Part shown: positions 12,374 to 55,410 of the stretch, piece by piece | How the letters are laid out: every line of letters starts with the position of its first letter | Numbering within the stretch: the first letter of the stretch is position 1 | Assembly: GCA_963575745.1 (NCBI GenBank) | Contig: CAUYUJ010017815.1 | Location: forward strand, 323,501-387,500 | Reading direction: 5' to 3' | Length of the DNA: 64,000 nucleotides | DNA from: Prorocentrum cordatum | Taxonomy: Eukaryota; Sar; Dinophyceae; Prorocentrales; Prorocentraceae | Notes under the pieces: generated by a model | What the model was told of the DNA's origin: nothing | The model's database searches: none | The model's input: only the letters and a program-made list of their open reading frames with translations | Made by a program: the position numbers and the translations under genes

Positions 12374-12502
12374 TTTTTTACCTAACAGCGAAGACTGATA
12401 GGTGGTTAAGAGGGCATCATGACGCCCCAGGGGGGTCTGGGCGCGATCCGGGGGAGGATGCCGGGGGGATGCCGGGGAACTCGTTTTAAGCAAACAGTAA
12501 CG

Positions 12503-13640
12503 CATTTCGTGGTCTTCGAGTTCCCAGAATTCTTTTCCTGGGCATGATTTTGAATGCCCGGAGCCAACTGTACACCACTTCGTGTTCTTCGTGTTCCCAG
12601 AACACGACTCCCGGGCCACATTTTGAATGCCCGGAGCCAACTGTAGGCCACTTCGTGTTCTTCGTGCTCCCAGAACACGACTTCCGGGCCACATTTTGAA
12701 TGCCCGGAGCCAATTGTCGGCCGCTTTGTGTTCTTCGTGTTCCCAGAACACCACTCCCGGGCCACATTTTGAATGCCCGGAGCCAACTGCAGGCCACTTC
12801 GTTCGGCTACGCGTAAGAGTGACCCTTGGCCAGAGTGACCTTTAGTGTTGGCCCTAATGGTGTCGGACAGATTTGTTGAGGAGTGCGCTCGGCCTCGTGT
12901 CGGCGCACGCTGCACCAGTCTGCGATCGCATCAGAGCGCGCTTGATTCAGGGTGCGCCTGTCGCAATCGATCGCAACGCATGCACGGTGTATTATGCCGC
13001 GTGCTTCGTTTGGCGAGGGGGGGGCAGTCGAGCGGGCGACGTGCTCTCCGCTTTGGAACTGGTCCCAAATCGTCCTGGAATAACTTTGATTATATTTTAC
13101 TAACTTTGACGAACTTTGAATATATTTTCGCACTCCGCGCTTTACAAGTCAATTCTTTACTATTGAAAATTATTTGCGGCCGCGGGGGGGCCAAGTTTCG
13201 GCCCGGTTTCGGCCTTGACGCCGGACCGGGTCAGACGTCATCGCGATGCGGCCCGGCAGTGCCAGAACATTCCGCGGTGGCGCCCGATTACGTCTGGCTT
13301 CGCAGAGCCCTCGGGCGGGTGTTCTGGGGCAGCCGGAACGAATTGGCGGGAGTCCGCAAGTGCCTGCTGGCGCTAGGGATCTATCGAAGCGCGCCCCACC
13401 GATCGTTGATGCAATCCGACGGCCTCGGCTTGCGCGGTTGCTCCAGGCCCCACGGGCCCCCCCAAGGCCGCGCACCAAAGGGCACTCTTGCCTAGGGTCA
13501 CTCTTACGTGTCGCCGATTCGTGTTCTTCGTGTTCCCAGAACACCACTCCCGGGCCACATTTTGAATGCCCGGAGCCAACTGTAGGCCACTTCGTGTTCT
13601 TCGTGTTCCCAGAACACCACTCCTGTACCACATTTTGCTT
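12503..13640. repeat. ~73-bp tandem array in the LINE A 3' region, interrupted
   Basis: Units of about 72-73 bp containing CCCAGAACAC(C/G)ACTCCCGGG, TTTTGAATGCCCGGAGCC and CTTCGTGTTCTTCGTG. About four units occupy 12503-12802 and 1.7 units occupy 13518-13640; the break is the TIR element at 12803-13517. On the LINE A strand the array is in its 3' untranslated part. Confidence 0.85.
12803..13517. mobile_element. 715-bp TIR transposon nested in LINE A
   Basis: Terminal inverted repeats of about 43 bp: the left begins TCGGCTACGCGTAAGAGTGA and the right, reverse-complemented, begins TCGGCGACACGTAAGAGTGA. It is flanked by TTCGT on both sides (12798-12802 and 13518-13522), and removing one copy restores the 73-bp repeat. 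That makes it a clean 5-bp target duplication. The interior is partly AT-rich (13070-13170) with no recognisable transposase, so it is non-autonomous or too degenerate to recognise. Confidence 0.85.
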
Positions 13641-14464
13641 GCCCTGCATTGCCACTGCGACTGCGACTGGGACTGCCGTTGCCTATGCGACGGCCATTGC
13701 GAATGCGAATGCGACTCCGAGTGCACCAGAATTCTACAACAGGAATCCTACATGAATCTAAAGGGGAATAATTCCAGATATGCTCATACACATCGCTGTT
13801 CGGTTGCTTTGCCAAGATAATTTTTAGCTGTGACCAGGCTCGCGCAGCACTAGCTCTGGTTCAAGCAGCCGCAACACTGGCGGCCGCGGCTGGCGGCAGG
13901 CGGAAGCCTAGGGGAGTCGAGCGGCAAAGGGGCGAGCGAGCCAAAAGGGCCGACTCGCCGCCGCCAGGCCAAGCCCCCACAACATCACCGAGCATGCGCC
14001 TTCGGCTGCACCGCCTTTGGCGGCAGCCCGAGCCTGATCCTTTCGACCTTCTCGAGGCGACGCTGCAAACCACGAGCGCTCTCTGGTAGCTTGCATCATG
14101 CGGACAAGCCCCCCTGCTTGCCTCCGATCACTCTCGCATAGCAATGACAGCGCGCGCACATGCGATCTCCAAAGATGGTCGTGAGAACATGCGCGCCGCT
14201 CGCCACTCCTGGGACCCCAGTGCCATCACCAGCGGTCGACGACGCAACGCTGGGGCCAGAGGGGCAATCGAGGGCCTCCGACCAAGACCGATCGGGCGAG
14301 CTCGAGCGGCGAGGCGAAACAACACAACCTTGCGAGGCAACCGGACTGCTGGCCGCACTGCGAAAACAGGACACATCGGCGGGCGCACACTCGCCGCCGT
14401 GGGCCCCCCCCCCAGGGGTTCTGCAGCGGGGCAAACAATGAGAAAAACATGTTTCATTTTTTTA
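13641..14464. other. LINE A 3' untranslated region, no gene seen
   Basis: Contains a short (TGCGAC)-like run (13660-13720) and GC-rich DNA. The minus-strand frames have no domain I recognise. A TAAAAAAATG on the minus strand just after the ORF2 stop (about 14455-14464) is A-rich but is not the element end. Confidence 0.5.
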
Positions 14465-17400
14465 TCATGTCCAGCTCTCCAAGAGCGGAAAGTTGGAAAT
14501 GGGAAAAAATGCCCAGGCCATTTTTAACGCCAACCAAGTTGGAGGAGACCCGAGGGACCCCGAGGGGGGAAGCGAGGCAGGCCCAACCACAAAGTTCGCG
14601 CCGCCAGCCGAACCCAGGCCACACGGGGCCTCAGCAGCGGGCCCCACGGGAGCGCGCGTGCAAGGTCCGACTGGGGCATCTGCAGCGGGGCCTACAGGAG
14701 CCTCGCTAGCACTCGCAACATCTTTCTCAGCCGATGTCGAGCGCACAGACCCGCTCGAGCTCGCTCCCGACGCTGCCGACAACAGGTAGTCGATATTATG
14801 TTGGGCTGTCTTGAGAGCCTTGGCCTTCGGCAGCTCGGACCTGCCGTCGCCTGTAGCCTCAGCAACTGCCGCCTCATGCTGGGCCTGCGCCAACGCGGCG
14901 AAGGCCGCCGCAGCCGCGGCCGCCGTCGCCGAGGCTGCTCGAGCAGGTCGCTTCTTCGAAGTATTGCCAGAGCGCGACGCGGCGTACGGCTTGGGCACGC
15001 AGGGCTTGGCCCAGAAATGCGCTTTGATGTTGCTGCTGTACGCGGTCCTGAGGCAGCGCAAACAGTGAATGCCCCCATTCGGGACCTCGATGACTTCGTG
15101 AGCCGTGAGATACAACAGAATATTGTTGGCCTGCTTCGTGACCTTCTCGTCCGAGATGCCAGCTCTGCCATCGGCAGCCATGCCGCCAGCAACCGAAACC
15201 CAGACGAACGCGGCGTCGAGCATGGCCTCCCTCGCCTGGATGATCTGCCGAATGGCGTCGGCAGCGCCGACTTGAGCAGCAATAAACATGGCGCACCGAT
15301 CAGCTTCGACGTTGCCTCTGCGCGCTCTGGCCGTGACCTGGCCCCCATTGCGCGTGCTGAGCAGAAGCGTGCGCACTGACCTTGGCAACTCTGCGAGGCC
15401 GCCTGCCCCCCCCCCCCCCCCCCCCCCGAAAAAGAAAATCCTGCACTGCGTGCCAGACGCGAACCCGCAGCTCCGCCCAGGCTGCCTCGCTGCTGGTGGC
15501 GGCCATGGGCCCACGAATCGTGGTGCCATTCACCGCAAAACCCAGAGCCAACATGAGCTGTCATTGGTGGAATGGTGTTCTTGAGAAGCAGAAGAGGCGC
15601 CAACAGCTCGCCGCCGCCAATGGACTGCAAGGCACCAGCCAAAGGGGAGGCCAACGCACGCGTGGCAGACCGTGGCCCAGGGTCGATGTGATAGCCCGCC
15701 GCTAGGCAACGCAATAACGGCACATCCTGCACAGGCGCCACCGTCGATGTAGGCTCCATCTGCGAACAGGTCGGGCTCTGCAAACGGCAAGCCCTCGTCG
15801 TAGCCCTTGATCCACTGCACGTGCACCAGGAAGTCGTCACCTGGCGGCCTCCACCCCGTGAGCGGTTCTGGCAGCCACAACCTCTCTAGCAGAGTCCTGA
15901 TCGTGATGGGGTCGCCCTTGTCCTTGAAGCGCCCCAGCTTCTCTTGCAGGGTCAAAGACGGCCAAACATCTTGATGCCCCATGTGCCTATGCCAATGCGC
16001 CCCCAACTCGCTGGAACACAGTGAGCAGACCGAGTGAGAGCAGAGGCCTGCCGCGCAGCGCCGCTCGTTGAGCCACTGACTATCGACCAGGCAGGGTCTG
16101 GTATACCCAGCTTCACTGGGCGCCAACGTCCTCCATGTCTTAGCGATCTTGGCGGGGCCTCGGCCCGACGCGACCCACCGCCTGACCTGCGGCAGAAAGG
16201 CGCCGCCAGCGCCGCATATGTCGTAGCGCGTGCCCTTGGCCAGCTGAGCCAACTGCCACCGCTCGGCGCCCCGCGTGGCAATCCGCCTGACCGCCCAGGG
16301 GGAGTGCGCCGCCAAGTTGAGCTTCTCGCCCGCGTCGGTGGCCCAACCAGTTAAGGAGCTGAGTGTGAACCCGATCCTCTGCAAGGACATTGCTGCTGCC
16401 TTGGGCGGGCCACGCGCGTCGCCCCAGTGCTTGGCGACCTTCGCGTTTTATTCGAAAACTGATTGCAAACTGGACGTAGGAATACACTTCTCCCATGCAC
16501 CCTTGGCCAGCATCATGACAGGCTCCAGCGTGGCAGTGAAGACGGGGTCCAAATTCTTGACTCCCGAGAGCACCAGCACTGCGGTGGCATTATTGCTTGC
16601 TGGCCGTGGCTCCACGGCTCTGACCGTGATGGAACGCATCCTGGACAACTCGCTGGAGTTGAGGCCAGCGCAGTTGACGCCGTGCATCGCCGAAGGGTGG
16701 AGGCCTATGAACGCAGCCTTGGCTGCAGCAGTGCGCCCGCGCCTTAGCCCCAAAAAAGCTCAGCACCTTGCCCAGGCGAAGCTCGGCGTTGGCTAGGCAT
16801 TGCTGCCGAAGGGCCCGAACAGCGCGTCGCCCCTCTGCATGATCAGTGCCTTGGTTGCGCGCGTGACGCGCCCCTTGGACTCCAGCAACCTTGAGCAGGC
16901 GCCGTGATGTGCTGCTTGGCAAGTCTGGTGGGTCATCCATTACCTTAGACTTCTTGACCGCCATCTTGGGTTTAACGTTCTTCAGCTGCTGCACCAATGC
17001 ACGAGTAGCTCCCGCAAGATCGCCGCCCTCCACGCGTTTGGCACCGCCCCAGCGCTGGTGCACCAGGTCGTCGACCACGATGGCTGGCGCGACGGCCCCG
17101 AACTGCGCGACCATCTCGTCGAGCGGCTGCGACAACGTGAGCTTCGTGAAGCCCGTGGCGAACGCGTCTCCAGCAAGCACCGCCTGGAAAACTTGCGACC
17201 CCTGCGAGCAGCACCCGTCTAGGTGCAGTACCCTCGGCGCGCGGTACAGAGAGATCTGCAAATTGGCCAGCCAGAGCGGAAAACCGAACTTGATGGCTGC
17301 CTGCACAAGGCACCGGTGCGAGACCTGCTCGAATGCCTTCCAAAGGTCCAGCAGGATGCTGGCAGATGCCCATTCTTGATCGGGGTGAAGCTCAGCATCA

Positions 17401-19376
17401 TCGCAATCCACTCTGATCTCGTCTGCTGCTACCACACCGCTTTGTCACATGAGCGCCCTGGGCACGCCCGCCAGCGGGGCCTGTCACTGGCATTCTCCCA
17501 CTGCTGCATGATGGGCCTGCGAAGCCTGCCGCGAACTCTGACCACCGCTGCCAACAACGCAATGGGTCGAAGGCCTCCATCTGCCTTGGGAATGAATGCC
17601 ACCTTGGTGATGAAGCTGTGCCAATATGCTTGCTGCTCGATTGCCATCACCATCAATGAGGGCCTCAATGCCTAGGTCATCCATCAGGTTGAATTAATTA
17701 ATTCACTTGGACGGATGCTGTCGAAGTTGGGCCCAGACTGAGGCTTGAAGGGCGATATCACTGTCCGCAGCTCGGCCACAGAAGGCATATCGGGCGCCTT
17801 CCGAGGTCCTCAGGCCAAGGCAGGCGGTGCCACTCAGGCTCGGGCTCCATCGGGGTCTTCGCGCCATGCGCACCACCACCTGCTGCCTGGTCTGGCAGGG
17901 CCCGGGGGGCGACGATGCCCCAGTAAACGGACCGCTCGTCGACCAACGCTTGCAGGCCCTGCTGAATGGTGAGCGGCGCCACACCAACTGCGTTGGCTGG
18001 CTTCGCATTCCAAATCTGAGCCGTCTTGCATGGATGCCGCCTGAGCCCGTGGCGATAGAGTGCAGCACCCAGTCGTTGTAGTTCTTGGAGGCTTGATCGG
18101 GACCCGTCTTGACCGTTGCGTCGGACCAGCTGGAACGCGCCGCACTGAGCGCCTCAAGCTGATCAAGGGAGAAATCCTGCGCGCCGCTGGCGATGATGCA
18201 GGCCACGCCCTGCAGCTCTGTGAGGTCGGACGGCGGCCTGCTAGCTAGCCTGCCTAAGGCACGCAGGGCTCCGAACCTGCTGAGCGGCCGCACGATCTGC
18301 GCTGCGTCTCGGAGACAGATTGCCACCGACCTGCACCAGGTCGAAGCTCGAGTGACGCGCGGCAGCCTAGGCGGCGACGGCGCCGTGGCTGTGGTGGCCG
18401 AAAGTTTTGGCCGTTCCGCATGGCCTGAGTGCCTGTCGAGGTCGTGGATGAGCCCGCACGCGTCAATCATGTTGACCTCCGCCTGCTCGACGAAAGCCTG
18501 CCACATGCTGTCTAGGTCGGTCATGCGCTCGAGCTGGTCACGAACGGCCCGCCAAGCTGAGCCATTATCCTGCGCGCAGCAGGCCAGCGGCCTGGGCAGA
18601 GGCAGCCGCTTGGCCGCGGGCATGACGGTCAGCTTCTGGTGCCTGCTCGGGCCGGGCAGCTCGAGCGCAACTGGATAGTGCGGGCTGAGGTCCAGCCCGT
18701 GGATAACGCTGGCCTTTGCCCCGCGGAAGAGCCTCGAGACCACGAAGTAATCGATGATCCTTCTTGCAGGTCTGCACGTGGCCTCCGCGGGCGCGGCAAC
18801 GACCGCCTGCGCCGCCTCTAGCCAGCCAGACTCTTCCAAGACTGGCGGCTCCATGTTGAAGTCCCCGCACACGATGAAGGGCCTGTTGGCCGCCTGCAGG
18901 GCCTTGAGCACCGCGTAGAGGGCGTCGGCATTGCTCTGGTTGAGCCCGGCGTTGACCTCCAGATACACGTTGACCCACGCGATGCCGCCTCTGCAGACGC
19001 CATTGAGGTGGGAGATGATGGCGCGACCAGGCTCCAGCACCGCCTGCTTGCCGAGCAGGTCGAACGGCCCGAGCCCGAGGTGCTGGGGCGCCATATGCAC
19101 AAGGCCTCCAGTGCCCTAGGCGCCAAAACCAGCGTTGATCGCTGGCGCTGTCTCCGAGGCCCATCCGAGCCGTCGAAGCTGCCCTTGAACGTCTTGGGTA
19201 CGTTGCGAATCCAAATGCGTCTCTTGAACGGCAGCGAAGTCGCAGCACCTGACAGTGGCTGTGCCAAGCAGGTTGGCGAACCTCGACCACGCATTGCAGT
19301 TGACCGCGAGGCCAACCCACCAACGCCCTTGCTTGTCCGCCGTCCTGGGCATGAGAGAGGAACGATTGCCACCCAT
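14465..19376 (-). pseudogene. LINE A ORF2: endonuclease, RT, RNase H, zinc finger (broken)
   Basis: The ORF2 protein would nick target DNA and prime reverse transcription there. It starts MGGNRSS at 19376, 17 nt past the ORF1 stop and in another frame. Endonuclease: AAVQETHL, FIVCGDFNMEPP (the GDFN box), IIDYFVVS and SPHYPV (SDH-like). An in-frame TAG lies at 19116-19118. RT: VAFIPKADGGLRPIALL (about 17600), ILLDLWKAFEQVSH (motif A) and AIVVDDLVHQ (catalytic DD, about 17068-17079), in changing frames. A zinc-type CSHSVCSLC stretch is near 16030. RNase H: DLFADGAYIDGG (about 15740-15790) and RRGNVEADR (about 15260-15330). The C-terminus has HEVIEV followed by CLRC and a final C, like the finger of LINE B. 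At least one stop and several frameshifts; a run of 22 C at 15406-15427 lies in the RNase H region. Confidence 0.85.
15406..15427 (+). repeat. Homopolymer of 22 C
   Basis: Reads as poly-Gly on the LINE A strand. Homopolymers of this length are prone to length change and sequencing error, so the local frame is unreliable. Confidence 0.95.
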
Positions 19377-19392
19377 GACCCCGCTGAGGCCG

Positions 19393-20325
19393 CTACCCCG
19401 GGGTCTTGGAGCGTTTGGCGGCCCTGGGCGTGTCCAGTGCCTCCCGGAGCCTCTTCCTCTCGTTCTCGTCCGCAGCGCTGCCGAGAAGCTCTCCAGGATC
19501 CTCGCCCTCCATGAACCTGTCGAACTCGTTGCTGCCTGGATCGCCTGCCATGGGGGCATCGGCCTCATCTGCGCCACCACCTGCGCCTGCACCAGGAGCG
19601 CCTGGACCTCCACCTGCGGCTGGCACAGCGCGGGCAGGCTCTGGCTCGGGATGTGGTGGGGCTGCGGCAGCAGCCATCTTGCCCAGAATCGTGGCGAGGC
19701 TAGCCATGACCTCAGCGCCCGACTTGCCCTCCGCGTCGATGGTGGCGACCTTGTCTTTGACGGAGCGGAGCGTGTCCTCGGCCGTGGTGGACGAGTAGAG
19801 CTTCGCCGCCTGCTTCTTGGCCTGCTCGAGCTCCGCCGCGCGCTCGGCCAGGGCCCGATTCGCTTCTGCCAGCGCCTCCAGAGCCTTGCGAGAGTTTTCC
19901 AAGAGGCGCCCGCGCTCGGCTGTGGCGTCGGCGACAGCCAGCGATGCTTTATCGACTGCCGGAGGGAGCTTCCGCGCCTCCGGGCCCAAGACACCAGCGG
20001 CTGCCTTGCGACGTGTCAGCTCGACCTTGTCTCGACTGCTGCGTGAAAGTCCGTCCTTGACTATCTCATGCGACTCCATGGCCGTGGCTGCGCAGGCTGC
20101 AATTTTCTCTGGCGAGAGCGCGAGGGTCGCGGGAGCAGCAGGCCCTCCGCTGTTAGGTCCGAGCCCTTTGCCACCACGCCCTTTGCCGCCGCCGCCTTTG
20201 GGCCCCTGCTTGGTCCAGGGAGCTCCGAGGTTGCCGCCGCCGACTGCCCACTTACCCCAAGGCTTGTGGTTGTCGCTCGCTGCTGGTGCATTGTGGTCCG
20301 TCTGCTTGCCCTTACAGCCAGCCAT
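19393..20325 (-). CDS. LINE A ORF1 protein (310 aa)
   Basis: First ORF of LINE A, expected to bind element RNA and act as chaperone in the ribonucleoprotein particle. The start is taken as ATG at 20325 (MAGCKGKQTDHNAP), the first good ATG after the leader in this frame that opens the recognisable protein. Layout: residues about 1-70 are Gly/Lys-rich (GPKGGGGKGRGGKG), likely nucleic-acid binding; about 75-220 are rich in Ala, Glu, Lys and Arg and likely coiled coil (ALAEANRALAERAAELEQAK); then a Pro/Ala/Gly linker and an acidic tail ending RAAKRSKTPG. The reading frame is intact, unlike ORF2. It lacks the CxxC ribbon seen in LINE B ORF1. Function is inferred from position and composition. Confidence 0.72.
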   Translation of the reverse strand: MAGCKGKQTDHNAPAASDNHKPWGKWAVGGGNLGAPWTKQGPKGGGGKGRGGKGLGPNSGGPAAPATLALSPEKIAACAATAMESHEIVKDGLSRSSRDKVELTRRKAAAGVLGPEARKLPPAVDKASLAVADATAERGRLLENSRKALEALAEANRALAERAAELEQAKKQAAKLYSSTTAEDTLRSVKDKVATIDAEGKSGAEVMASLATILGKMAAAAAPPHPEPEPARAVPAAGGGPGAPGAGAGGGADEADAPMAGDPGSNEFDRFMEGEDPGELLGSAADENERKRLREALDTPRAAKRSKTPG

Positions 20326-20570
20326 GATACAGAGTGAGAAAATGCTGTGGCGCATAACCACCGCACCGCACGCACTGCTAGCACTTCGCCATGAGAGCCA
20401 GAGGGTCCAAGCGAACAGACAGAGTCGGAACAAGACTGCGCACCCTCGGGCTGAGGGAGGCAGGTGATGACCAGGGGCGGACCTGGCACCACAAGAGGAT
20501 GAATCGCAAGCTCGGGGAACAGAGCTATCCCGCTTTCGCCCGGAGGCTTGCAGCCTCCCAAGCATGGAGC

Positions 20571-20592
20571 TTTGAGCCAAAATGGCTACGGA
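20571..20592 (-). other. Dinoflagellate spliced leader at the LINE A 5' end
   Basis: On the minus strand all 22 positions of the DinoSL consensus match except the last (CAAA instead of CAAG); the variable first base is T. The core GCCATTTTGGCTCAA is exact. The leader is not followed by GT, so this is not an SL RNA gene. It is a leader copied back from a mature trans-spliced transcript. Confidence 0.93.
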
Positions 20593-20605
20593 GGACATAA
20601 GGAGG
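20593..20605 (+). repeat. Target-site duplication of LINE A, right copy
   Basis: GGACATAAGGAGG, identical to 12361-12373 and touching the first base of the leader. Confidence 0.88.
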
Positions 20606-20870: not shown

Positions 20871-20879
20871 CGGACTTGG

Positions 20880-21928: not shown

Positions 21929-21941
21929 GTCTACGGGGCCC

Positions 21942-31106: not shown

Positions 31107-31183
31107 ATGTGCGTGTGTGTGGCATTGTCTGTGACTGAAGTGACGGGGTGTGGAAGCTAGCGAAAAGGTAGCAACCGCGGCCC

Positions 31184-34523: not shown

Positions 34524-34529
34524 GCAGGC

Positions 34530-35374: not shown

Positions 35375-35409
35375 TCTTGGGGCCAAACAGGGTCGACGTC
35401 AAGGTGCTT

Positions 35410-39639: not shown

Positions 39640-39688
39640 TACTGTGCTGGGTTGCCCGCGCTCCCTTTGCGTATTTTGCGCGCGCACA

Positions 39689-39841
39689 CACACACACTCA
39701 CGCACACACACACACACACGCGCACACACGCACACACACACAAAAACACACACATACACACACACGCGCGCACACACGCACACACACACACACATACACA
39801 CACACGCGCGCACACACGCACACACACACACACACACACAC
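39689..39841 (+). repeat. (AC)n microsatellite, 5' flank of LINE B
   Basis: About 150 bp of AC with periodic GCGC and single-base interruptions, ending directly at the leader of LINE B. A pure (AC)n run lies at the other end of the element. Confidence 0.95.
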
Positions 39842-39862
39842 CCGTAGCCATTTTGGCTCAAG
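39842..39862 (+). other. Dinoflagellate spliced leader at the LINE B 5' end
   Basis: All 21 invariant bases of DinoSL (CCGTAG, then CCATTTTGGCTCAAG) are present. Only the variable first position is C rather than A/G/T. The next bases are ATGATT, not GT, so it is not an SL RNA gene. Confidence 0.95.
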
Positions 39863-39984
39863 ATGATTTGTTCCACAGGGGAACGAGTGGATACCGCTAG
39901 TCCGCGGCCAGTGCCAGGGCTTCTCCGCCCGACAGTTTTGTTTCGGGTGTTGGCAAGGGGTAGGCTGTGCGCTGCCCACTCGCC

Positions 39985-44200: not shown

Positions 44201-47200
44201 CACCACCTGCGCGGTTTGGCCCAGCGTTTCAGGGCCAAGACGGGGATCGGCGTGGACGGATGGCAACCCAAGCTTTGGGCCTACCTCACGGACGGCACGC
44301 TCTCGGCGCTCGCGTCATTGCTGGCCTGGTGCCAACAACTGGGGCGGTGGCCGTCCCAGGTCCACCTCCTGCTCGTTTTCATCATCGGGAAGCTCGATGG
44401 AGGGGACCGACCCATCATTCTTCTACCTGGCCCTTGCCGAATCTGGGAGGCGTGGCAGCTGCCCACCATCAGGAGCTGGTTGGCGGCGCACCCCAGGAGC
44501 TACGACTACACGGCGGCGGGCCAATCATCGGAGCGTGCGCTGTGGAAAGCTTTGTTGGACGACGAGCTCGTGTTGGGCACAGGCATACGTGCGGCCACGA
44601 TGCTGGCGGACCTCGCCAAGTGTTATGAGAAGGTTCCGCATGAGCGTATGTGGTGGCTAGCAGCTTGGTGGGGCGGCCCGCTGGAGGTGGTCGCGCTCGC
44701 CCTGGAAAGTTTCGCCTTTGGCCGTGTCATTCGTCTCGGGGAGGCCTGCTCGGCGGAGGTCCTGTCCTCCACAGCGCTCCCAGCGGGCAGCCGTTTCGCG
44801 CCCACCTTCCTGAGGTTCTACCTCACGCTGTGCTTAGACGACCTGCTGGGGGTTTTCCGCCTCACGATCTACTTGCGCGTTGATGACATCGCCTTGCGGG
44901 TCATGTCCACCGAGGCGCGCGTCTTGCACATGCTGCCGCAGGCCACGCGCTTGCTGTTTTGGATGCTGGAGTCCTTCTTGGGCCTGGGGGTAGCCCGAGC
45001 GCGGGACGGGGCGAGAGGCAAGTGCTCTTTCCTGCAAACGGCCACTCCGTCTTCAGGCTTGACGCAGGCCATGGCCGTCCTGGGAGTGCCGCCCAGCACC
45101 TCCGAGCGGTGGCTCGGCATCGACTACGGTCCCAGCGTCAAGACAGAGAACCAGTCAGCCCCAGTCAGACACGCGCGGCTCAAGATAGCCAAGCAGCGTT
45201 GGCCTAAGATCCGCGGCCTTCCTCGTGCACGCGGGGGCAAGCTCAAGATGGTCGTGCGGCAGGGCCTCGGAGCCTCGGTCGCCTACGGCGCCCGTGTCCG
45301 CGGCACGCCCAGGCCCATCGTGCGTTTCATCCAGCAGAAGGATCGGGCCGTCCGCAGGGGCGCCACAGCTTTTACCTCCCGAGTCTTGCACGACGGCCTC
45401 GACCCCAGTTGCGCCGACACCCTCGTTCTAGCACCGCTGCTGGCTTGGGCGAGGGAAGCTTGGGACCACCCAGAGGGGCGGCGTGCGCAGGCCACTGCAT
45501 GGGCCCGAGTGCAGCAACAGCTCGCGTTGTACATGGACGCCGACGCTCAGGAGTTGTGGTCAGTGGTGCGCGGCCCAGCGGGGGCCACCTCAGTCACTGT
45601 TCGAGCCCATGGTTGGAGCATGCCGTCAGCCTTCGAGATTGTCTTGCCTCCACGTGGCGGGGTGCTCCAAGGAGGGGACGTCCATCTTGATATACTGCAG
45701 ATTTGCCCCAAGTCGGTCGAGGCCGCCGTGCTTTTGGCCGCCCGTTCCAGAGCCCTGTGTCAGTGGGCTGCGGCTCAGCCCGAGCGGGCTGCGCTCCTGC
45801 CAGCGCCGTGGCTCACCCCAGCGAGGCAGTTGGTCAAGCGGCGCAAGCAGGACGGGTGGCTGCAACACCATGCCGACGCGGTCAAGAAGGCGGTTTTGGG
45901 CGGTTTCCCTTCGCAGGAGGCCCTTTTCTCTTCGGGCCAGGCGGACACTCCGTATTGCCAGCTTTGCGACGACACGACCTGTTTCGGCACCCACCAGCAC
46001 TATTATTGGCGGTGCGGCAGCCCGACCTGTGCCACGGTGAGGGAGCAGCTGACGGCCCACGACGCGTCACCTACCTTCAGAGACGTCGGCCACCTGGGCG
46101 TGTCGGCCTCCTCGTCGGAAGCCTCAAGATGGTTGTGGGAGCGGGGTTTGCGGCGAACCCCATGTTACGGCTTGGCTTGGAGTCTACCGTCGCAGCGCAC
46201 CCATTGGATCGTCAATGGCGCGGCCCCCGAGCTCACCGATGTGCTGGTTTCGGACGGATCAGTCAAAGGCTTGGATGACCTCAGGCACGGCGGCTGGGCG
46301 GCTTTGCAGTGCACAGCGGAGGCCGACGACGTGGTGCAGGGCCTGTACGGCCCACTGCCCTTTCCCGACCCCAGCTCGGTCCTGGCAGAGTTGTGGGGTC
46401 TCCTCCACGCCCTCAGGCATTCGGTCTTCATCACGGCCATCATCATTGACAATGCTCAGGTGGTCCAAGGCTTGGCCCGTGGCAGGGCATGGTGTTGTTC
46501 AGCGGCCAGGCCCTATGCGCACGTCTGGCTCGAGATCTGGAATCGCCTGGATGACATGGACATCCTTCCTGGCAGAGAGTTGTCGGTCATCAAAGTCGCC
46601 TCGCACATATCGCAGGCCAAACGCCTAGAGCTGCCAGAGGAGGTCCAGATTCACATGAGGCACAATGACTTAGCCGACGAATGGGCCAAGCAAGGAGCAG
46701 ACCTCAGCGCGCCGCCAGAGTGGGCCACGTTGCAGGTCAAGCAGGAGCTCAAGGCCACCAAGCGCGTGCTCGAGTACATCGGGCACTTCAGGGTCCTCCT
46801 CGACGGGGTCAAGCTGGCGGAGCCTAGGCCCAAACGGCAGCAGGGCCAAGAGGCCAACATTCCTCAGGCTGCACGACCCCAGGCTGGTCCCAGGCACCCG
46901 CACGTTCTGGAAGTGTGCCGCGGTTACTCCAAGTGCACCAACTGCGGCAAGGTTGCCCGCACTCGCCTCGCGGCCTTTCAGTTGCAGGAGTGCCGTGGTC
47001 GTCTCCAAGGGCTCCAGGGCAAGTTAGTCAAGAGTGCGGCCAAGAGAGGCAGTGTGGCGGTGCCTCTTCTCGTGGCGGCAGGCGCCGCCGCTCGGCCTGT
47101 GCGACAGCGAGCAGACCATGGAGATCAGGGTGAGCCTCGAGTAGAGCCCGACCCTGCGCCTGCCTCCCAGCTGGGCCCCGACCCGCTGTGGGCTCCTGTC

Positions 47201-48658
47201 GCAGCAGCCCGCGCGGCTCTTGGCAGGATGGAGCGGATACCTGACGGCCCTGTGTGCATGGGAACCCCGCCAAGCCAGCCACACATCACGCCCGAACAGC
47301 AGCATGTCCGTTCCATCATGGACGATGCCATCATCTGGGCGTCTTTCTGGATCGATCGTTTCGACGTGGCAGGCTTCACCAACGAGTGGGACTACCGTTC
47401 GTGGTGTTCGGAATATCTTGAAAGGTTTCTCAGCTCGGCGGCGCGGGCACCAGTTCGAGAGCATCTTCTGCGTAGCAACCCTGGCCGCACTCTCGGGCAG
47501 GTCGTCGACGACCTATGCGCCACCTCTTGGACGCGTGCCGAACCAGCCCGTCAGGCGCAGTTCGCCAGGGCACGGCCTGACTCGGGTTTGACAGCCAGGC
47601 AGCGCCGCCGGCTGCTTCGGCATCACTTCGATGTGTTGAACCAGGTCAGGGAGCGTTTCAGGGATCTTCTTGGAGATCGTGCCCCGCCTGAGACGGCCTC
47701 CTGGCACCAGTGGGTCTTCGAGCCCCTCTCCTCGGATGGCGACCAAGGAGGTGATGCGGCAGGCCGCGCCGCCGAGGACGCCCATGGCTACGACGATACC
47801 GACGAGTTCGCGGCCCTCAGCGCGCACAGCGACCTCGAGGTGGTGGAGGCAGACGGCAAGGCCACGCAGGCCACAGGCACCCAGGCGTCAGAGCGCGAGT
47901 CGTCGCCCAATCCCGACCTCGCCCCCAGGGCACTCCAGCCACAGGAGGAGGGAGCTCCAGCGGGAGGGGCGAGGCGGGAGGGTGTTTTGCGGATCCGCAG
48001 CGCGGCAGCCACCTGTTCCCAGGACGTGGACGACGGTGCTACGGCTGGCGCTGGGGCAGCTCCTGTTCCCACGGTGCCGCCTGCTGCTCAACCCGCTGGC
48101 GAGCCTGGAGCTGATCAGGGCGAGTTGGCCAGCTCCCTGGACGTGGACGGCAAGGCTGCCACCCAGGCAGCGGCCGCTGTGTGCTCCGCCCCCTTGGCGG
48201 CACACCAAGCTCGTGCTGGCCAGGGCAGCCTGAAACACGGTGGTAAGGCCCCAAGGACTGGTTCCTCAGCATCCTCGGCGGCGGCGGCGGGCTCTGGCCA
48301 GGGCGGCCTGGCACCGCTGGCGGGGCCCCCGCCGCCCTCGGCTGGGGCTGCGGCGGCCTCGGAGCCAGAGCGGGGTGCGCGCGGGCGGGCGGCCTCTGCC
48401 CAGCCCGCCAGGAGTGGCCAGGCGCTGCCTGAGACGGCCAGAGCCGCTTCATCGGAGCCTCGGCCACATACGGTCGAGATCATTGGCAACTTCGTGGTCT
48501 GCGTCGTGTGTGGTTCCTACTACAGCTCGGTGGCCAGGAACCTCGGCGGGCCGTGCAGGCGGCTGGACCCGCGCGACCCAGGCGACAAGGAGCGCCTCAG
48601 GCGCATTCGCCGCATCCAGCGCGGCCAGGACCCAAAGACTGGAAGGGATCTGAGTTGA
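41195..48658 (+). CDS. LINE B ORF2: endonuclease, reverse transcriptase, RNase H, two zinc fingers (2487 aa)
   Basis: Cuts target DNA, primes reverse transcription on the nick and removes RNA. Start taken at ATG 41195, inside the ORF1 stop context; ATG 41123 is an alternative. Residues about 234-402: six ~27-residue Gly/Ser/Val repeats. Endonuclease about 472-710: IIGFQEHG, ASAGVLLAIP, WIVIADWENLP (GDFN position), VIDYFWMH, YHPHRATW (SDH position). RT about 1012-1335: TGIGVDGWQPKLW, FIIGKLDGGDRPI, MLADLAKCYEKVPH (motif A Asp) and YLRVDDIALRV (catalytic DD, about 1225). RNase H about 1682-1836 with Asp/Glu/Asp/Asp in VSDGSV, LAELWG, IIDNAQ and HNDLADEWA. Fingers about 1903-1934 and 2425-2456. 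At 2487 aa it is about twice a usual LINE ORF2. No stops; probably intact, though the endonuclease boxes are atypical. Confidence 0.88.
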   Translation: MRKAQTWGPDAPPEAKPREPRLVRLGRRERAILATRMRRMARHWRPTPSLGTTAQDRRHWDSYCVPYIFHQLGSGEYTAMLDDLAATTGSGSRIAERMRIARELGDEAWNRGGDARRLQRQWLEHLQVANQDAFEREAAQQDRTQSAAERWFDRQSQATSGTQAPTVYFDDRIHCWRLCAAKVLEADLGPSTSTGTSEEPLCCSASPVECTELTPTPAACNLTDEHRGAAPCISAGGLSAVRGSPDQLTSVGGFSGSAVSTGDGLSAADGGTQAQLISVSGVSGSTVSTDGGFLAAGGTQVQLTSGRGPSGSDASTVDGFSVAVGGTQEQLTPVGGCSGFAAPTGGAFLAAGGPQAQFTPDGGFSDPVVPAGVGGSAHGGSQALLTSVFVSAGSAVSSGESHCGPGQPNIIEMAHETVAHPTEGGDVSVGSVGGQSTCSGTPAKPQCDVAKYRPSAAGARRGKRRQRSHRRFTFHSVNASLSWGNVVGYLHGAAHQQLTEGKIPIIGFQEHGKRRLWAEESARALAPLGWRALPTPATDGPNGGASAGVLLAIPACVGVTLASGQRHWDISPPGCAGRLLMATLEAKGIGKLLVFCAYCFTGQKLASVGNSALLSVITGWAVQLQLPWIVIADWENLPDALERSPWNNQLRGRVVAWQGEGGTNRSPHGERVIDYFWMHSSLAANISPARIDDDAVYHPHRATWVEFQQPWSAFTYTKLIRPHKFPIPGVKPRHFDLSCPDVPAGFDPDAVPTQELLDDTWEAFCHAAEEELIQKVGLDPSSRQADQCRGRGGPPRFRKCPLLPTHTEAIASYGEAKRWRWFANELAWLGIIEVKLFSYTGASDLALTTLHQQRHASIRKLRDRFRHHMLLEGVAELQEFFEVFTSRGRGYEDLQELSAWRLSCSQYASYLEWQIGKERRDSFKQRLEDDFPGSQGLLHRVTKWRQAWQAPKGSISKELLPAAPQAAVDQELHDWSKVWTTGSGFPKPWRGLQQVAVTPPSPHHLRGLAQRFRAKTGIGVDGWQPKLWAYLTDGTLSALASLLAWCQQLGRWPSQVHLLLVFIIGKLDGGDRPIILLPGPCRIWEAWQLPTIRSWLAAHPRSYDYTAAGQSSERALWKALLDDELVLGTGIRAATMLADLAKCYEKVPHERMWWLAAWWGGPLEVVALALESFAFGRVIRLGEACSAEVLSSTALPAGSRFAPTFLRFYLTLCLDDLLGVFRLTIYLRVDDIALRVMSTEARVLHMLPQATRLLFWMLESFLGLGVARARDGARGKCSFLQTATPSSGLTQAMAVLGVPPSTSERWLGIDYGPSVKTENQSAPVRHARLKIAKQRWPKIRGLPRARGGKLKMVVRQGLGASVAYGARVRGTPRPIVRFIQQKDRAVRRGATAFTSRVLHDGLDPSCADTLVLAPLLAWAREAWDHPEGRRAQATAWARVQQQLALYMDADAQELWSVVRGPAGATSVTVRAHGWSMPSAFEIVLPPRGGVLQGGDVHLDILQICPKSVEAAVLLAARSRALCQWAAAQPERAALLPAPWLTPARQLVKRRKQDGWLQHHADAVKKAVLGGFPSQEALFSSGQADTPYCQLCDDTTCFGTHQHYYWRCGSPTCATVREQLTAHDASPTFRDVGHLGVSASSSEASRWLWERGLRRTPCYGLAWSLPSQRTHWIVNGAAPELTDVLVSDGSVKGLDDLRHGGWAALQCTAEADDVVQGLYGPLPFPDPSSVLAELWGLLHALRHSVFITAIIIDNAQVVQGLARGRAWCCSAARPYAHVWLEIWNRLDDMDILPGRELSVIKVASHISQAKRLELPEEVQIHMRHNDLADEWAKQGADLSAPPEWATLQVKQELKATKRVLEYIGHFRVLLDGVKLAEPRPKRQQGQEANIPQAARPQAGPRHPHVLEVCRGYSKCTNCGKVARTRLAAFQLQECRGRLQGLQGKLVKSAAKRGSVAVPLLVAAGAAARPVRQRADHGDQGEPRVEPDPAPASQLGPDPLWAPVAAARAALGRMERIPDGPVCMGTPPSQPHITPEQQHVRSIMDDAIIWASFWIDRFDVAGFTNEWDYRSWCSEYLERFLSSAARAPVREHLLRSNPGRTLGQVVDDLCATSWTRAEPARQAQFARARPDSGLTARQRRRLLRHHFDVLNQVRERFRDLLGDRAPPETASWHQWVFEPLSSDGDQGGDAAGRAAEDAHGYDDTDEFAALSAHSDLEVVEADGKATQATGTQASERESSPNPDLAPRALQPQEEGAPAGGARREGVLRIRSAAATCSQDVDDGATAGAGAAPVPTVPPAAQPAGEPGADQGELASSLDVDGKAATQAAAAVCSAPLAAHQARAGQGSLKHGGKAPRTGSSASSAAAAGSGQGGLAPLAGPPPPSAGAAAASEPERGARGRAASAQPARSGQALPETARAASSEPRPHTVEIIGNFVVCVVCGSYYSSVARNLGGPCRRLDPRDPGDKERLRRIRRIQRGQDPKTGRDLS
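41895..42400 (+). repeat. ~81-bp in-frame tandem repeat inside LINE B ORF2
   Basis: About six units of 27-28 codons, consensus near GGFSGSAVSTGGGFLAAGGT then QAQLTSV. Each DNA unit holds GGTGGTTTCT and GGAGGCACCCAGG-type blocks. It lies between the N-terminal helical part and the endonuclease, so it acts as a flexible linker if anything. Confidence 0.85.
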
Positions 48659-49176
<518 letters not shown>

Positions 49177-49705: not shown

Positions 49706-49809
49706 CACCAGCCAGACCCCTGCAGCACCGACCCTGGCCCCAGGCCGATCCTGGGCCCAGCGTGCGTCTGGCCAGGATCGGCGCAGGTGCATCTTTGGTG
49801 CCATCCTGT

Positions 49810-49950: not shown

Positions 49951-49972
49951 TCCGTGGCCATTTTGGCTCAAG
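49951..49972 (+). other. Dinoflagellate spliced leader at the LINE C 5' end
   Basis: Matches the 22-nt DinoSL at every position but one (CCGTGG for CCGTAG), with T at the variable first base. The core GGCCATTTTGGCTCAAG is followed by GCCTAG, not GT. Confidence 0.93.
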
Positions 49973-50280
49973 GCCTAGTGGCGTTCCATTCACTGCCTTC
50001 GCGGGGTAGGCTCCCAAGCGATCCAGCATCCAGACATTTGCCGCCACAATCACGGGTTAGCGGCCGCCCCTCCATATTCGCTCCCTCGCTGCGCACGCTG
50101 CTGACTACCGTCGCGCTGCGTTGCACGGAGCTCTTCATAACCGTGGCTCGTGAGCCAAGCTGCCAGGTTCAGCGACCGCCTCCTGGACCTCTGCCTCAGC
50201 CGCTACGTTCTGGACCAAAACCTTTTGCAGGCGCTTGGCGTCCAGCGCCCGCGACCACTACGACCAGCTACTTCGACATC

Positions 50281-51543
50281 ATGCCGGCCGCCTCCTCAGA
50301 CCGAAGCCAGTCTGCATCGAACGGATCTACGTCCCGCAGCAGACGCGAAGACCGCCAGCATCGCCGTGACGAGCCTCGCCGTCCCGAGCGTGGTGGCGAC
50401 CGCCAACCCCGCCGTGAAGAGCCTCGCCGTGACGGTCGACGTGTAGCTCGCGAACATCTCGGGCAGCTTGGCCACACGGGCTTCAGCAGCCAAGGCCCCG
50501 CGGGTGCCCCCCCACGCGCTACTGGCCGAAGCTCTGCGAAACCGCCGCCAATCTCAGCGCGATCTTCAGCCAGATCAGGAGGCCGTGCCGCTGCCGAAGC
50601 CGCCCCCGTGGCAATGGAAGATGAAGATATGCCACCGCCTGGTCATCCTCCTGCTGACCCACTCCTGGGCGCCGCCGACCCCTGGGTCAACAGCAGGTTC
50701 GGCTCACAGCTCGCGCGTGACATCGAGCTGACACCCACCTTTCCGTCTCAAGAGCTTGCCGCCGCAGCCGCCGCACAAGCCGCACCAGCTCCTGGTCTCG
50801 CCGCACCTCGTCCAGAGCAGCATCCTACACCTGCTGAGCGACATGAGCCGCTTCCTGGAATCCCTGAAGATCTTGACGTCGCCCTTCGTGAACTTATGTA
50901 ACGGCAGCTCGCTACAGCCGCTGCCCGTTCGCAAGCTCAAGCCGACCAGCCACTCGCCGAATCATGCGAACGCTTCAGACATCTCCTTCAACAGCACGTC
51001 ACCGCTACCGAACGCAGAGTTGGCGTCCGCACTCGCAGAGAACAGGACCGCCAAGCTGCTGAACACCAGCACATGTGGCAACATATCGACCAGATGCGCG
51101 ACGCGCTCGCCCCCGCCGAAGCCCAGACGCCGATCGCCGACCTCAGCCGCCTTGCCGAATGGGGCAGACAGCCCGACCCGACTGTCTTCACGATCTGAAG
51201 CCAACGCCTCATCGACCTCCAGGAGTGGATCGCCGCCGCCAATTTGCGGACAATCCATGTCGAACTTCTCGGTGGCGAACCTGCTCTCCGTTTCATACTA
51301 CAAGTCAAGGGAGGTAAAGTCATCGCAGTGCCTCGCGCCCTTGCCTTATCACGTGCCCTCCGAGACGAGCGTTCAGGACAAAGGCGAAATACACGCTGGC
51401 TCAATGGCCATTGTCAAAATCATTGTCAGAGGTTCAGCCGATCCGTCCACTGCCCAGTGGAACGACCAGGCCGCCGACCACCCGCAGTTCCATCACACCG
51501 ATCGCGGCGACATCATCACTTCCTTCCAGGCGCTCTTTGCTGA
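50281..51543 (+). pseudogene. LINE C ORF1 with two in-frame stops
   Basis: One frame from ATG 50281 (MPAASSDRSQSASNGS) to the stop at 51541-51543, interrupted by TAA at 50899 and TGA near 51197. Parts: Arg/Glu/Asp-rich N-terminus (RREDRQHRRDEPRRPE); acidic middle (MEDEDMPPPGHPP); after the TAA a long charged helix likely to be coiled coil (AESCERFRHLLQQHVTATER, HQHMWQHIDQMRDAL); then PDPTVFTI; and after the TGA RTIHVELLGGEPALRFILQV, a beta-rich stretch. The order of coiled coil then folded domain fits a LINE ORF1 RNA-binding protein. Two stops in an otherwise continuous frame point to recent inactivation rather than chance. Confidence 0.72.
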
Positions 51544-51599
51544 CGCGGAGACGGCCAAGTTGCGTTCCTAACCATCGCTGGGCCCCGTGGAGGGTCGAC

Positions 51600-54332
51600 G
51601 ACACCACCGAGCCGACCACGATCGCCACGTGGAACGCCAGAACCCTCGCGCGCTACAAGAGCAAGCGCCGCCGTTGCAAGCAGGCCGCCCTTGCGGAGTA
51701 TATGAAGCGCAAGTGTGCCATCGCACTGCAGGAGGTCCACGGCTCGGAGGCTCTGCTCCGCACCTGGGTCGACGCGCAGCCGTGCCCCTACAAGCTCTTC
51801 TTCTCTGAGTTCGCGCAAGACGACGGCGACGGTCCGAATGCCGCGGGCGGCGTCGCCACGCCCATCCCCTGGTTAACCCCGATGGAGCTCGAGCAGCTGC
51901 AGCCGAACCAGCTCCCGCTATTCGCTCATGAAGAATTCGTTCCTGGTCGCGTCCAGCTGGTGGCCGTCACGCGCGCCGTGACGCGTGCCACCTTGGTCCT
52001 AATGAATGTGGACAGTCACGAGATCGCCGACGCCGGCCGCCGCAAGGTCCAGCAGGCCTGGGAGCTGCGTCGCACATGGGCGGAAGCTAACTACCGCATG
52101 CGCACCTTCATCGCGATCAGGGGCATCAAAGCAGCCCGCCGCCTGCCGCAGAGCCCCCTGCAGCCGCAGCCGCAGCGCGCCAGGCTTGCGCTGGACAACA
52201 GCATGCGCCAGCAGCAGCCCTTCTGGAAGTCCCTCTTCGGCTCCATGCTTGAGATCGAGACCGAGCTCCCCGCGCGCTTCAACCGCTCGGATTTCGCCGC
52301 CTCGACCATCGACCGCATCTTCATCAGCTTGCCCTCGCGCGCCACCCAGGAGCTCTCGATCCACGCGAGCGCGGCGCACGACGCCGCGCTGCTCTCGGAC
52401 AACCGCCTGAGCGACCACGCCATCATCACTTTCTCCATCGGCATCAATCCGCGCACCCCGAAGGGCGAGCAGACCACCCACCCCTCGATCTTCCGCGACC
52501 CGAATTGCGCCATCTACTTCCAGCAGCTCCTGGACGCCACCATCTTCGACTACGTCTCGCTGGGCAGCCGCTTGCGCACCCGCGAGCGCCTCGCGACGGA
52601 GACCGCCCAGCTGGTTCGCGACGATTGGGTCCGCCGGGCTACCCGCGATGCCAGCCAGACAGGCTTCCGGGCCGGCAGGGTCTACGCGATGCGCTCCATC
52701 TCGCGAGCCGTTTGGCGCAAAGACCTTCAATTGGCCCGCAGAGTTGCCTCCGCGACCGAGCTCGGCGCCAAGTCCATCAACCTCTCCGACGGCGTCATCG
52801 CGATCAACGAGCCTGCCGTCTTCGCCAGCCTCGCTTCGCAGCTGAATCACGACTTCGAAGCGCGGCAACTCCCCCTCGCGCAGCAAGCCGCACAGCGCCC
52901 TCATGGGCGCGCTGGCGCCCTGGACCTTGAGAAACTCCGTAAGGTGTCGGGCTCTCCTCTGGTCTCCCTGGAAGCGCCGTCTCGTCCTCCAGGGAATCGA
53001 GGTCACGGGCCCAGACGGGCCCGAGGTAGCGAGAGAGAGAGCGGCTCGATGGTCGCCGCCCTGCGCGACCGCTGGCAGCCCGTCTTCGCCGCCAAGCCCG
53101 TCGACGAGACCAAGGTCACCAACTACATCCACGCGCGCATGCCGAAGGGCGATATCCTGGACATTGGGGCCCCCGCGAAGCCGCAGATCAAGGCTTTCCT
53201 GCAGCGCGCTTCGCCGTCAGCGCCAGGGCCCGCCTGCTTGCCGTGCTCCGCCTAGCTCGCGCACGACGCCTCGCTGACACTCCTGGAGGACGTGTTCTTC
53301 TTGTTTTGCTCTGGCCAGTACTGCATCCGCGACTTGAACGATTCCGACTTCGCCTTCCCGCCGAAGGGCGACAGCGCCGTTGGCGAATTCACGACAGACC
53401 GAGCTCCTGAAGAGACCCGACCGCCATCGTTTCAGAGCGCTGACATAAAGGCCATCGCCGAGGCAGCCAACTACCTCATCAAGGGCGCCGTGGCAGAGCG
53501 CACCCACATAGCACAACAGGGCTTCGTGCAGAAGCGCAACTTCACCAAGCACATCGTTCGCTTCGACTCTGAAATGCGGCGCGCAGGTCTATTCCCTGGA
53601 GCTCGCCAAGCCAAGCCCGTCGTCGCGAGCTTCGGCTTCTCTGCCGCCTTCCCGTCCTTAGGGCGGGTTTGGCTATTCGCCGCGCTAGAGCACTTCGGGA
53701 TCCCGGCTGGCCTCATGAACCTCCTCCGCGCGCTGTATTTTGCGCCGAACAGCTACATCGATATCGACGGCGTCAGGCACACCATGTTCGCACTAGAGTC
53801 TGAAGCTGCGCAGGGCTGTCCTGCTTCGGGCCCGGCCTGGGCCATCGCCATGGGCCCGTTCATCCGCCACCTCGCCACGTTTGTGGAGCACCACGACGGC
53901 ACGCCGAATCTGAACGCTGGCTACCTCGGCGCCTGCGCGGACGACATCGGGCTGCTGACATGCTCCTTGAACAGGCTGCGCCGCGCATCTGAGCCCTTTG
54001 CCGCAGCCGAGGAGCTTGCGCTCCTCTCGCTAAAGCCCCGCAAATGTTTCATCGCTCTGCTCTGGGCCGCGGCGACCCCAGACACCATTGCCCAAACCAA
54101 AACCCATTTGTCCGAGCTCGGACCTTCCTGGGGTGGTTTCTCGGTTGCGGGCTGCGCCAGATACCTCGGCACGTTCCTCGGCCCCGGCGCCTCGCTGGCT
54201 TCGCAGTGGCTCGCACCAGGGCAAAAACGGTGGCAACGGGGAAATCTTCTACACCGAGTGCAGGGAGGCAGTGACGCCACAGCTCGCTTTTATAATACTT
54301 CGGTCCTGTCCACGCTCCGCTCCAGCCGTTGA
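51600..54332 (+). pseudogene. LINE C ORF2: endonuclease and reverse transcriptase, one in-frame stop
   Basis: Endonuclease: TTIATWNARTL (51611), CAIALQEVHG, AAGGVATPI, STIDRIFISL and LSDHAIITFSI (52412), the order seen in APE-type LINE endonucleases; the GDFN box is replaced by MNVDSHEI. A TAG at 53253-53255 interrupts the frame where a Trp would be expected, and the same frame then carries RT: QQGFVQKRNFTKHIVRFDS, SFGFSAAFPSLGRVWLFAAL (motif A, with Gly where the catalytic Asp should be), AAQGCPASG and GACADDIGLL (catalytic DD intact). The frame ends at 54332. In a shifted frame to about 55170 the C-terminal block follows (FKTLSGGWTTTGRMH, then GCGSQPDSCPHYL). The stop, the lost Asp and the frameshift make it inactive. 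Confidence 0.82.
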
Positions 54333-55410
54333 TCGCCCGCCGTAAACAGTATGTTTTCCATGATGCTTCGCTCGTCGCCGAACTCACTTCGCAAAGTTGA
54401 GTTCATAGCCATGGCGCGGTGGAGCCCGCAGCCTGTCCCACAGCCCGCTCAGGTCACATATGTCGCTGCCGCTGCCCGATCTGCTGCCGTCACTCCCGCG
54501 GGTGGCGGGGGGGCCGTTTGCCGATCGCTTCGCCGACACATCATGGGAGGAAACCTCCCTTCAGAACGCATCTTGCTGGCAGGCTGGCGGGTGGTCGCCC
54601 GCTTTCTGGTCGTCTCGGCAGTCCATCGTACAGTGCTATCGCTCCCCCCTCCGAGCCCAGCCTCAGAAGCCGTTCGCCCGCCCAGCCCTCTCAGCCGATA
54701 TGCGCGCCACTCGCCTCGAACAGCGCGAGGCCGCAGCTGCCGCCCCGCCGCGTCGCCCGAAATGCCAGCGCACGTTTGCACGCAAGCTTGCAGAGCAAGC
54801 TTTCGCCTCGCCGTTTACTTTTACTCTGCTCAAACGCATCTCGGCGTGGAGGGGCCAGGCGCCGACGGCGCCAGGAGAGTTACAAAAGCGCTGGTCAACG
54901 CTCGCGGAAGCGCTCAAAACGGTGCGCCCCAGCTGGCACTGGGCCACCTTTAAGACACTCAGCGGTGGCTGGACTACCACTGGCCGCATGCACGTGCTCG
55001 CCCCCAAACAAGACGCTCTCGGGTGCGGGAGCCAGCCAGATTCATGTCCCCACTACCTCACCCGCCCCTCGCTTTCGAGCTTCCTCTGGTCCCCTGATCC
55101 TCCCCTCCTCCGTTCGACGCTCGCAGCCTGGGGCCTCGGGCCCGCAGTTGCGTACCCGTCCGAGAATTAGAATCCGCGTTCGTTGCGCCCGACGGTTGAG
55201 CGCATCACGCTCGCGCTTCACATCTATTGCCAAATGAAGTATCACGCTGGCCCGGGCTCACGCCCTGCGGCGATGGCCGCAGCGAGCCGAGCTGCCAAAA
55301 CACTTCTGTATAGGTGAGAGAGCTAGCGACGGGCGCCGCGTACAAACATCATTTGCCCTCGTTTCGCTTCGTGCCCGATTGCCCTCTTCTTTTCTCTTTC
55401 AGGGTACATG

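Follow-up and report, generated by a model that had tools for sequence, protein, structure and literature searches.

Why should long interspersed nuclear elements (LINEs) in a dinoflagellate genome begin with a sequence that the cell splices onto its messenger RNAs? Dinoflagellate cells trans-splice a 22-nt leader, the dinoflagellate spliced leader (DinoSL), onto mRNAs, and retrogenes with relict DinoSLs have reportedly been found in dinoflagellates by Slamovits and Keeling in 2008 and by Song et al. in 2017. The stretch in question, called the window below, comprises 64,000 bases of Prorocentrum cordatum (contig CAUYUJ010017815.1, positions 323,501 to 387,500 of the forward strand), and within it three LINE insertions, here elements 1, 2 and 3, each open with the leader. 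We consider it very probable that the template of these insertions was a trans-spliced LINE mRNA, acting in cis or in trans, a claim broad enough to overlap with one of the alternatives weighed below.

The leader letters used in the searches match those given in PMC8045281 and PMC7245778 (these papers, like all others below, are cited for the passages that concern the point at hand). Searching the window for the 21-nt DinoSL core with up to 3 mismatches gave three matches, and the same search of dinucleotide shuffles gave matches in 0/100, which bears out the sequence-only reading of this DNA, where the leader had been counted exactly three times in near-perfect form. The core matches from the mismatch search, and the leaders as read in each element, are the following:

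20571-20591 (-), DinoSL core match
39842-39862 (+), DinoSL core match
49952-49972 (+), DinoSL core match
20571..20592 (-), DinoSL of element 1; 21/22, last base deviating, first base T
39842..39862 (+), DinoSL of element 2; 21/21 of the core, preceding base C
49951..49972 (+), DinoSL of element 3; 21/22, A to G at leader position 6

Taken as 22-mers with T first, all three leaders score 21/22, and the remaining 22-mers of the window with at least 15 leader matches score 18 (60064, -), 16, 15 and 15. As had also been stated from the letters alone, a GT splice donor is absent after the leader in all three cases (the next bases are GC, AT and GC); because no GT lies directly 3' of any of them, none looks like a spliced-leader (SL) RNA gene. 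An Rfam scan of the whole window returned no family at gathering score. Downstream of every leader, in coding orientation, lie a first open reading frame (ORF1) and then a reverse transcriptase (RT) region, and 3/3 of the DinoSL copies in the window open a LINE in sense. The chance of this is about 1.6e-6 with the LINE starts taken as given, a figure to be used as a guide only, the leaders having been known before the LINEs were recognised. No fourth, leaderless LINE was found among 30 further large ORFs (large ones only), none of which had an RT or endonuclease (EN) match at E <= 0.1.

The extent of the insertions, and of the sequences that border them, is as follows:

12374..20592 (-), element 1, LINE insertion; 8219 bp, of which 693 bp belong to a nested element; leader, 13-bp duplication and A6 at the edges; ORF1 open, ORF2 decayed
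20593..20605 (-), 5' copy of the 13-bp target-site duplication of element 1; the 13-mer is found only at the two edges in the window
12361..12373 (-), 3' copy of the 13-bp target-site duplication of element 1; A6 precedes it
39842..49033 (+), element 2, LINE insertion; about 9.2 kb within a (CA)n tract, long intact frames
39685..39841 (+), (CA)n flank 5' of element 2
49034..49174 (+), (CA)n flank 3' of element 2; cosine with the 5' flank 0.968
49951..55408 (+), element 3, LINE insertion within CTC-rich DNA; 3' boundary approximate

In element 1, CCTCCTTATGTCC adjoins the first base of the leader, recurs right after the 3' A6 run and occurs nowhere else in the window. By this duplication the leader is shown to be the insertion edge of element 1; taken alone, the duplication is suggestive, not overwhelming, because chance 13-bp repeats are not negligible in the window. 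The flanks tell the same story for all three elements, with the flanking repeat halting at the leader and resuming past the 3' end, although the placement is less sure in element 3. The 4-mer cosine between the two flanks, whose null mean is about 0.26, is 0.79 in element 1, 0.97 in element 2 and 0.81 in element 3, values reached by 0/5000, 1/5000 and 0/5000 random pairs at the same spacing, respectively, while the flanks compare with the inner edges at 0.29, 0.07 and 0.14 on the 5' side and 0.45, 0.00 and 0.29 on the 3' side. Between the outer flanks of element 1 there is an alignment of 74% over 114 bp (E 1.1e-15) and there are two weaker ones, all lying outside the element. In a blind scan for the 3' ends, using the left flank alone (for element 1 over 2-15 kb downstream), the top peak of element 1 fell at 8220 bp, which is the duplication site (0.81; 0.80 at 8450 bp, deeper in the same repeat), and the peak of element 2 fell within the (CA)n tract (0.97). 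Tandem repeats called by TRF make up 10.7% of the window, and the immediate left flank of element 1 is not among these calls.

Behind the leader, the three 5' ends have nothing in common. Their alignment begins at the first or second leader base and ends at base 21 or 22, and comparison of the first 450 bases of the elements gave, past the leader, chance-like short matches only (best E 0.038). Because the shared sequence ends at the end of the leader, trans-splicing is indicated rather than common descent of the 5' ends, and, since no GT follows either, the leader is present as an exon only. Together, the duplication abutting the leader in element 1, the like repeats outside both ends in 3/3 elements and the 5' ends that share the leader alone support the leader as part of the inserted DNA. 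The sequence-only reading had proposed that active LINEs use trans-spliced RNA as their template, the leader thereby becoming part of the inserted element; the evidence supports this in part, for the leader within the inserted DNA, and use of SL-bearing RNA in the regular cycle of active elements would be a further step, elements 1 and 3 being decayed and element 2 having RVDD in its RT.

The wear of the leaders tracks that of the elements: in element 2 the core is perfect and the frames are open, and in elements 1 and 3 a single leader change goes together with broken frames. No unusual RNA folding was found in the first 120 nt behind the leaders (z 0.06, -1.01 and 0.58). A pyrimidine tract upstream of the leader was considered as an acceptor signal and rejected, as it is not common to the three (0.65, 0.50 and 0.95 over 20 nt, window mean 0.50).

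In dinoflagellate retrogenes, a second round leaves a truncated relict, CCATTTTGGCTCAAG, behind the new leader (PMC12014239, PMC3229502). No such stacking was found here: the 1.5 kb that follow each leader hold no further exact leader stretch of at least 9 nt. Elsewhere inside the elements there are just two such stretches, one deep within element 1 at 13938 (-) and one at 47784 (-), where it runs antisense to element 2. Leaders free of relicts are still compatible with a retrocopy, since relicts are expected only after at least two rounds. The missing relicts would mean either that each copy is a first-round insertion whose source had no leader, or that splicing took place at the terminal AG of the leader, restoring the same 5' end.

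What the elements encode bears on whether they are LINEs at all, and the parts that could be recognised are:

19393..20325 (-), element 1 ORF1, 310 aa
17706..19115 (-), element 1 EN region; PF03372 (Exo_endo_phos) E 8.9e-4 and PF14529 E 0.033, both below the Pfam cut-off
16593..17444 (-), element 1 RT region; RVT_1 E 0.041, below the Pfam cut-off
39985..41202 (+), element 2 ORF1, 405 aa; CX2C...CX2C stretch seen by eye; starts 122 nt past the leader
41123..48658 (+), element 2 ORF2 frame; 2511 open codons from a likely Met; RVDD replaces YVDD in the RT
50281..50901 (+), element 3 ORF1; early stop, after 206 aa
51318..54953 (+), element 3 EN-RT frame; in-frame stops at 53253 and 54330

ORF1 and ORF2 had been described from the letters as recognisable in all three elements, which holds fully for element 2 only, ORF2 of element 1 being broken and element 3 having stops in both. 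The RT domain expected of a LINE appears to be present throughout, and the assignment is firm for element 3 only, where RVT_1 lies above the Pfam cut-off (E 7.9e-8) and the human LINE-1 ORF2p is matched in PDB (E 1.2e-4). For the RT pieces of elements 1 and 2, RVT_1 is the sole Pfam family listed (in element 2 at E 0.0014, below the cut-off), and the two RTs are 31% identical over 101 aa (E 1.2e-7). Upstream of the RT, EN has matches below the cut-off in element 1 (8.9e-4) and in element 3 (Exo_endo_phos, 0.03), and element 2 has no match. RT and RNase H motifs were assigned by eye. For element 2, Pfam listed no family for the putative RNase H and EN pieces, PDB sequence searches with its RT and putative RNase H pieces found no retroelement, and the RNase H is named through relatives only, two of which (P0003 and P0006) UniRef calls RNase H type-1 domain-containing. 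No long terminal repeats were found on comparing the first with the last 2 kb of each element, flanks included: the three matches in element 1 all lie in the flanking C-rich repeat outside the element, and elements 2 and 3 gave no repeat. The 3' ends without poly(A) in elements 2 and 3 lean towards recognition of the LINE's own 3' end, with the microsatellite flanks masking the exact joins.

Element 2 belongs to a family. A 1400-aa piece of its ORF2, scored against 7994 candidates, found six relatives (P0002-P0007) at E <= 0.001, every one of them from Prorocentrum cordatum, of which P0002-P0006 are 93-99% identical to the query over 26-100% of it and P0007 is 65% identical over 13%. The motif YVDD is present in five of the six (P0002-P0006), that stretch being missing from P0007, and the ORF1 start of element 2 is also the start of proteins P0002 and P0004 (confirmed by alignment for P0002). 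Because the relatives P0002-P0006 are so close, they point to a recent multiplication of the family. As protein queries, the leader-plus-ORF1 frames of elements 3 and 1 were scored against 7991 and 7993 candidates and gave no match at E <= 0.001. Outside the window, exact DinoSL occurred in one viral contig and two genome contigs, where five queries by tblastn found no LINE (best E 1.8), and two related-locus scans of viral contigs found no relative, the window's own genome records possibly not being covered.

Three observations concern the elements themselves. All three insertions (20592, 39842 and 49951) sit in simple or degenerate repeats, which hints at a possible target preference of dinoflagellate LINEs for repeats, with n = 3. 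The 3' part of element 1 holds a nested element of 693 bp with terminal inverted repeats (TAAGAGTGACCCT...) at 12814-13506 (-), beside a 73-bp minisatellite. The ORF2 frame of element 2 is open for 2936 codons from inside the leader (39848-48658, +), overlapping ORF1 in a different frame.

Dinoflagellate genomes are thought to transcribe gene arrays, LINEs insert by target-primed reverse transcription, and LINEs elsewhere obtain their 5' end from an internal promoter or a 5' ribozyme. On the reading we favour, three LINE families of Prorocentrum cordatum with unrelated 5' ends would each have been inserted via reverse transcription of a leader-bearing mRNA. The LINE pre-mRNA, probably from longer transcription, would receive DinoSL by trans-splicing; the leader-bearing mRNA would be translated and then reverse-transcribed at the target nick by the LINE's own EN-RT, priming at the target and action in cis being presumed. 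As the RT would copy to the extreme 5' end of the RNA, the leader would become the first bases of the new copy. Trans-splicing would likely give the LINE a capped, defined 5' end, and in the next round splicing at the AG that ends DinoSL would regenerate an identical one.

That template is shared by an account in which trans-spliced LINE mRNAs were re-inserted in trans by some other retroelement, in the manner of retrogenes, the leader being a relic of dead-end copies and playing no part in the normal cycle of the LINE. Relict DinoSLs are indeed widespread on ordinary genes (PMC6050394, PMC12014239, PMC7245778, PMC8045281), two of the three elements here are decayed, and Ty1/copia is favoured as the machinery (PMC6050394), the retrotransposon-like clusters of expressed sequence tags in Oxyrrhis marina being Ty1/copia in 14/14 cases (PMC3942190). 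However, the DinoSL insertions in these 64 kb are LINEs in 3/3 cases and include no host genes, the lack of a terminal poly(A) in elements 2 and 3 fits specific 3'-end recognition better than the capture of mRNA, and the family of element 2 has relatives at 93-99% identity; capture by a bystander is possible, and we think it unlikely. We consider it improbable that the element itself encodes the leader, an SL-like 5' end inherited with the element and its own start site, kept as mimicry or as a promoter (TTTT box) and not freshly spliced. A TTT(G) promoter motif has been proposed within DinoSL (PMC6050394), and the absence of stacked relicts behind the leaders would suit such inheritance, but the same 22 nt would need to have been kept by three families with otherwise unlike 5' regions, and the wear of the leaders fits age since insertion, an argument that is weak at n = 3.

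The two other ways of placing a leader at the start of a LINE fare worse. Template switching or RNA ligation could have joined the SL RNA to the LINE during insertion, as in U6/LINE-1 chimeras, in which LINE-1 insertions with target-site duplications have a full-length small RNA, in sense, at the 5' end (PMC13174262). After a jump to the SL RNA one would expect its 3' part to have been copied too, yet 3/3 leaders stop at the exon boundary with no SL-RNA intron, and the Rfam scan described above has no family at gathering score in the window; we consider this very improbable. SLACS/CRE-type elements insert in the SL RNA genes of trypanosomes, and in an insertion of that type the leader would be target DNA, as its place at the insertion edge might suggest. 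Here, though, the elements are bordered by (CA)n, CTC-rich and C-rich repeats and not by SL RNA genes, no GT follows the leader and the duplication of element 1 lies outside it, so that we give this explanation almost no credence.

Several points weigh against reverse transcription of a trans-spliced LINE mRNA, or at least against the firmness with which it can be stated. The case consists of three elements in one window. Chance can produce repeats as long as the duplication of element 1: a suffix of at least 13 bases recurs 3-12 kb downstream at 19/4000 random minus-strand positions and at 7/1199 local positions. The flank cosine of element 1 takes in the 13-bp duplication itself, and its right flank somewhat resembles the inner 3' edge (0.45, the other five values being 0.00-0.29). 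For elements 2 and 3 the 3' end was picked by eye, and in the blind scan of element 3 the chosen end came second (0.83), behind a tract at 63741 (0.88). Target-site duplications could not be delimited in elements 2 and 3, whose sites are microsatellites, and neither of these ends in poly(A); for EN and RT, elements 1 and 2 have either matches below the Pfam cut-offs or none. The AlphaFold2 models were left unused, with mean pLDDT of 34.6 for the EN region of element 1 and 27.7 for ORF2 of element 2 (5 near-identical rows). Finally, the LINEs known from Symbiodiniaceae and Polarella have been characterised as divergent remnants left by an old expansion (PMC8045281), and for this reason the P. 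cordatum pattern may not hold in general.

The nearest parallel is a 2025 study of parasitic flatworms, in which 597 mobile-element loci, mostly long-terminal-repeat elements and LINEs, bear partial leaders and in which the general idea is already published as a conjecture, that of integrated trans-spliced retrotransposon transcripts (PMC12582326). Those loci, set aside by their authors, differ in leader and lineage, their leaders are partial and the passage gives no insertion boundaries, whereas near-perfect whole leaders stand at the edges here. Dinoflagellate retrogenes are alike in that a leader-bearing mRNA is reverse-transcribed and re-inserted and the leader marks the 5' end (PMC6050394, PMC12014239, PMC3229502); here, in contrast, the cargo is the LINE itself, the edge is mapped once by a duplication and stacked truncated relicts are missing. 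The L1Tc/ingi elements of trypanosomatids are likewise LINEs within a trans-splicing host, but in L1Tc the Pr77 promoter and a 5' HDV-like ribozyme make an unspliced RNA (PMC8190864). In the present LINEs no 5' HDV-like ribozyme was matched by Rfam at gathering score, although a diverged one could escape and Pr77 was not searched for. In the U6/LINE-1 chimeras, too, a LINE with flanking duplications (here those of element 1) opens with a small-RNA sequence in sense, the difference being that the chimeras carry the full small RNA where only the spliced exon is found here (PMC13174262). In 2023, a role of LINEs in the endogenisation of a dinoflagellate RNA virus was argued for on the basis of leaders, and of LINE genes, in the vicinity of the viral genes (PMC10235124). 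In the open-licence literature we found no description of LINE insertions whose mapped 5' edge is DinoSL, subscription papers lying mostly outside that search.

LINE insertions that start with the leader link trans-spliced RNA directly to LINE insertion, and offer a way to locate complete LINE 5' ends in dinoflagellate genomes. The machinery of mRNA recycling in dinoflagellates was stated to be unknown in a 2018 review that favoured Ty1/copia (PMC6050394). We tentatively put forward, as a possible extension, that dinoflagellate LINEs may have no autonomous 5' end and may use DinoSL as a renewable terminus, its AG serving as acceptor on transcription from neighbouring promoters, so that the leader would be exactly replaced and the size of the element would stay constant; LINEs would then likely be the machinery of mRNA recycling. 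If true, a renewable terminus would account for the lack of stacked relicts in the three elements, and the idea suggests how a mobile element could persist without a promoter of its own.

Some minor observations were made away from the three elements. The viral contig with exact DinoSL (IMG/VR, IMGVR_UViG_3300045993_001077; L001:1936-2913; GC 0.22) has two exact copies, with a 254-aa ORF (GC 0.49) behind the second leader, a glycosyltransferase gene (GC 0.21) before the first and, by eye, an AT-rich stretch repeated ahead of both. It looks like the capture of leader-tagged dinoflagellate cDNA by a large virus, the alternative being an assembly chimera. The two genome contigs (L002:1-60 and L003:4334-4354) are binned as Dehalococcoidia metagenome-assembled genomes, and in L002 the leader comes right after a trinucleotide tract at the contig end; both are probably dinoflagellate contamination or chimeras. 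Within the window, reading the 31-37 kb region by eye led to no assignment; it holds a series of long overlapping frames, of which those scanned have no Pfam match at E <= 0.1:

31172-35594 (+), long overlapping frames, perhaps a decayed gene or a further retroelement

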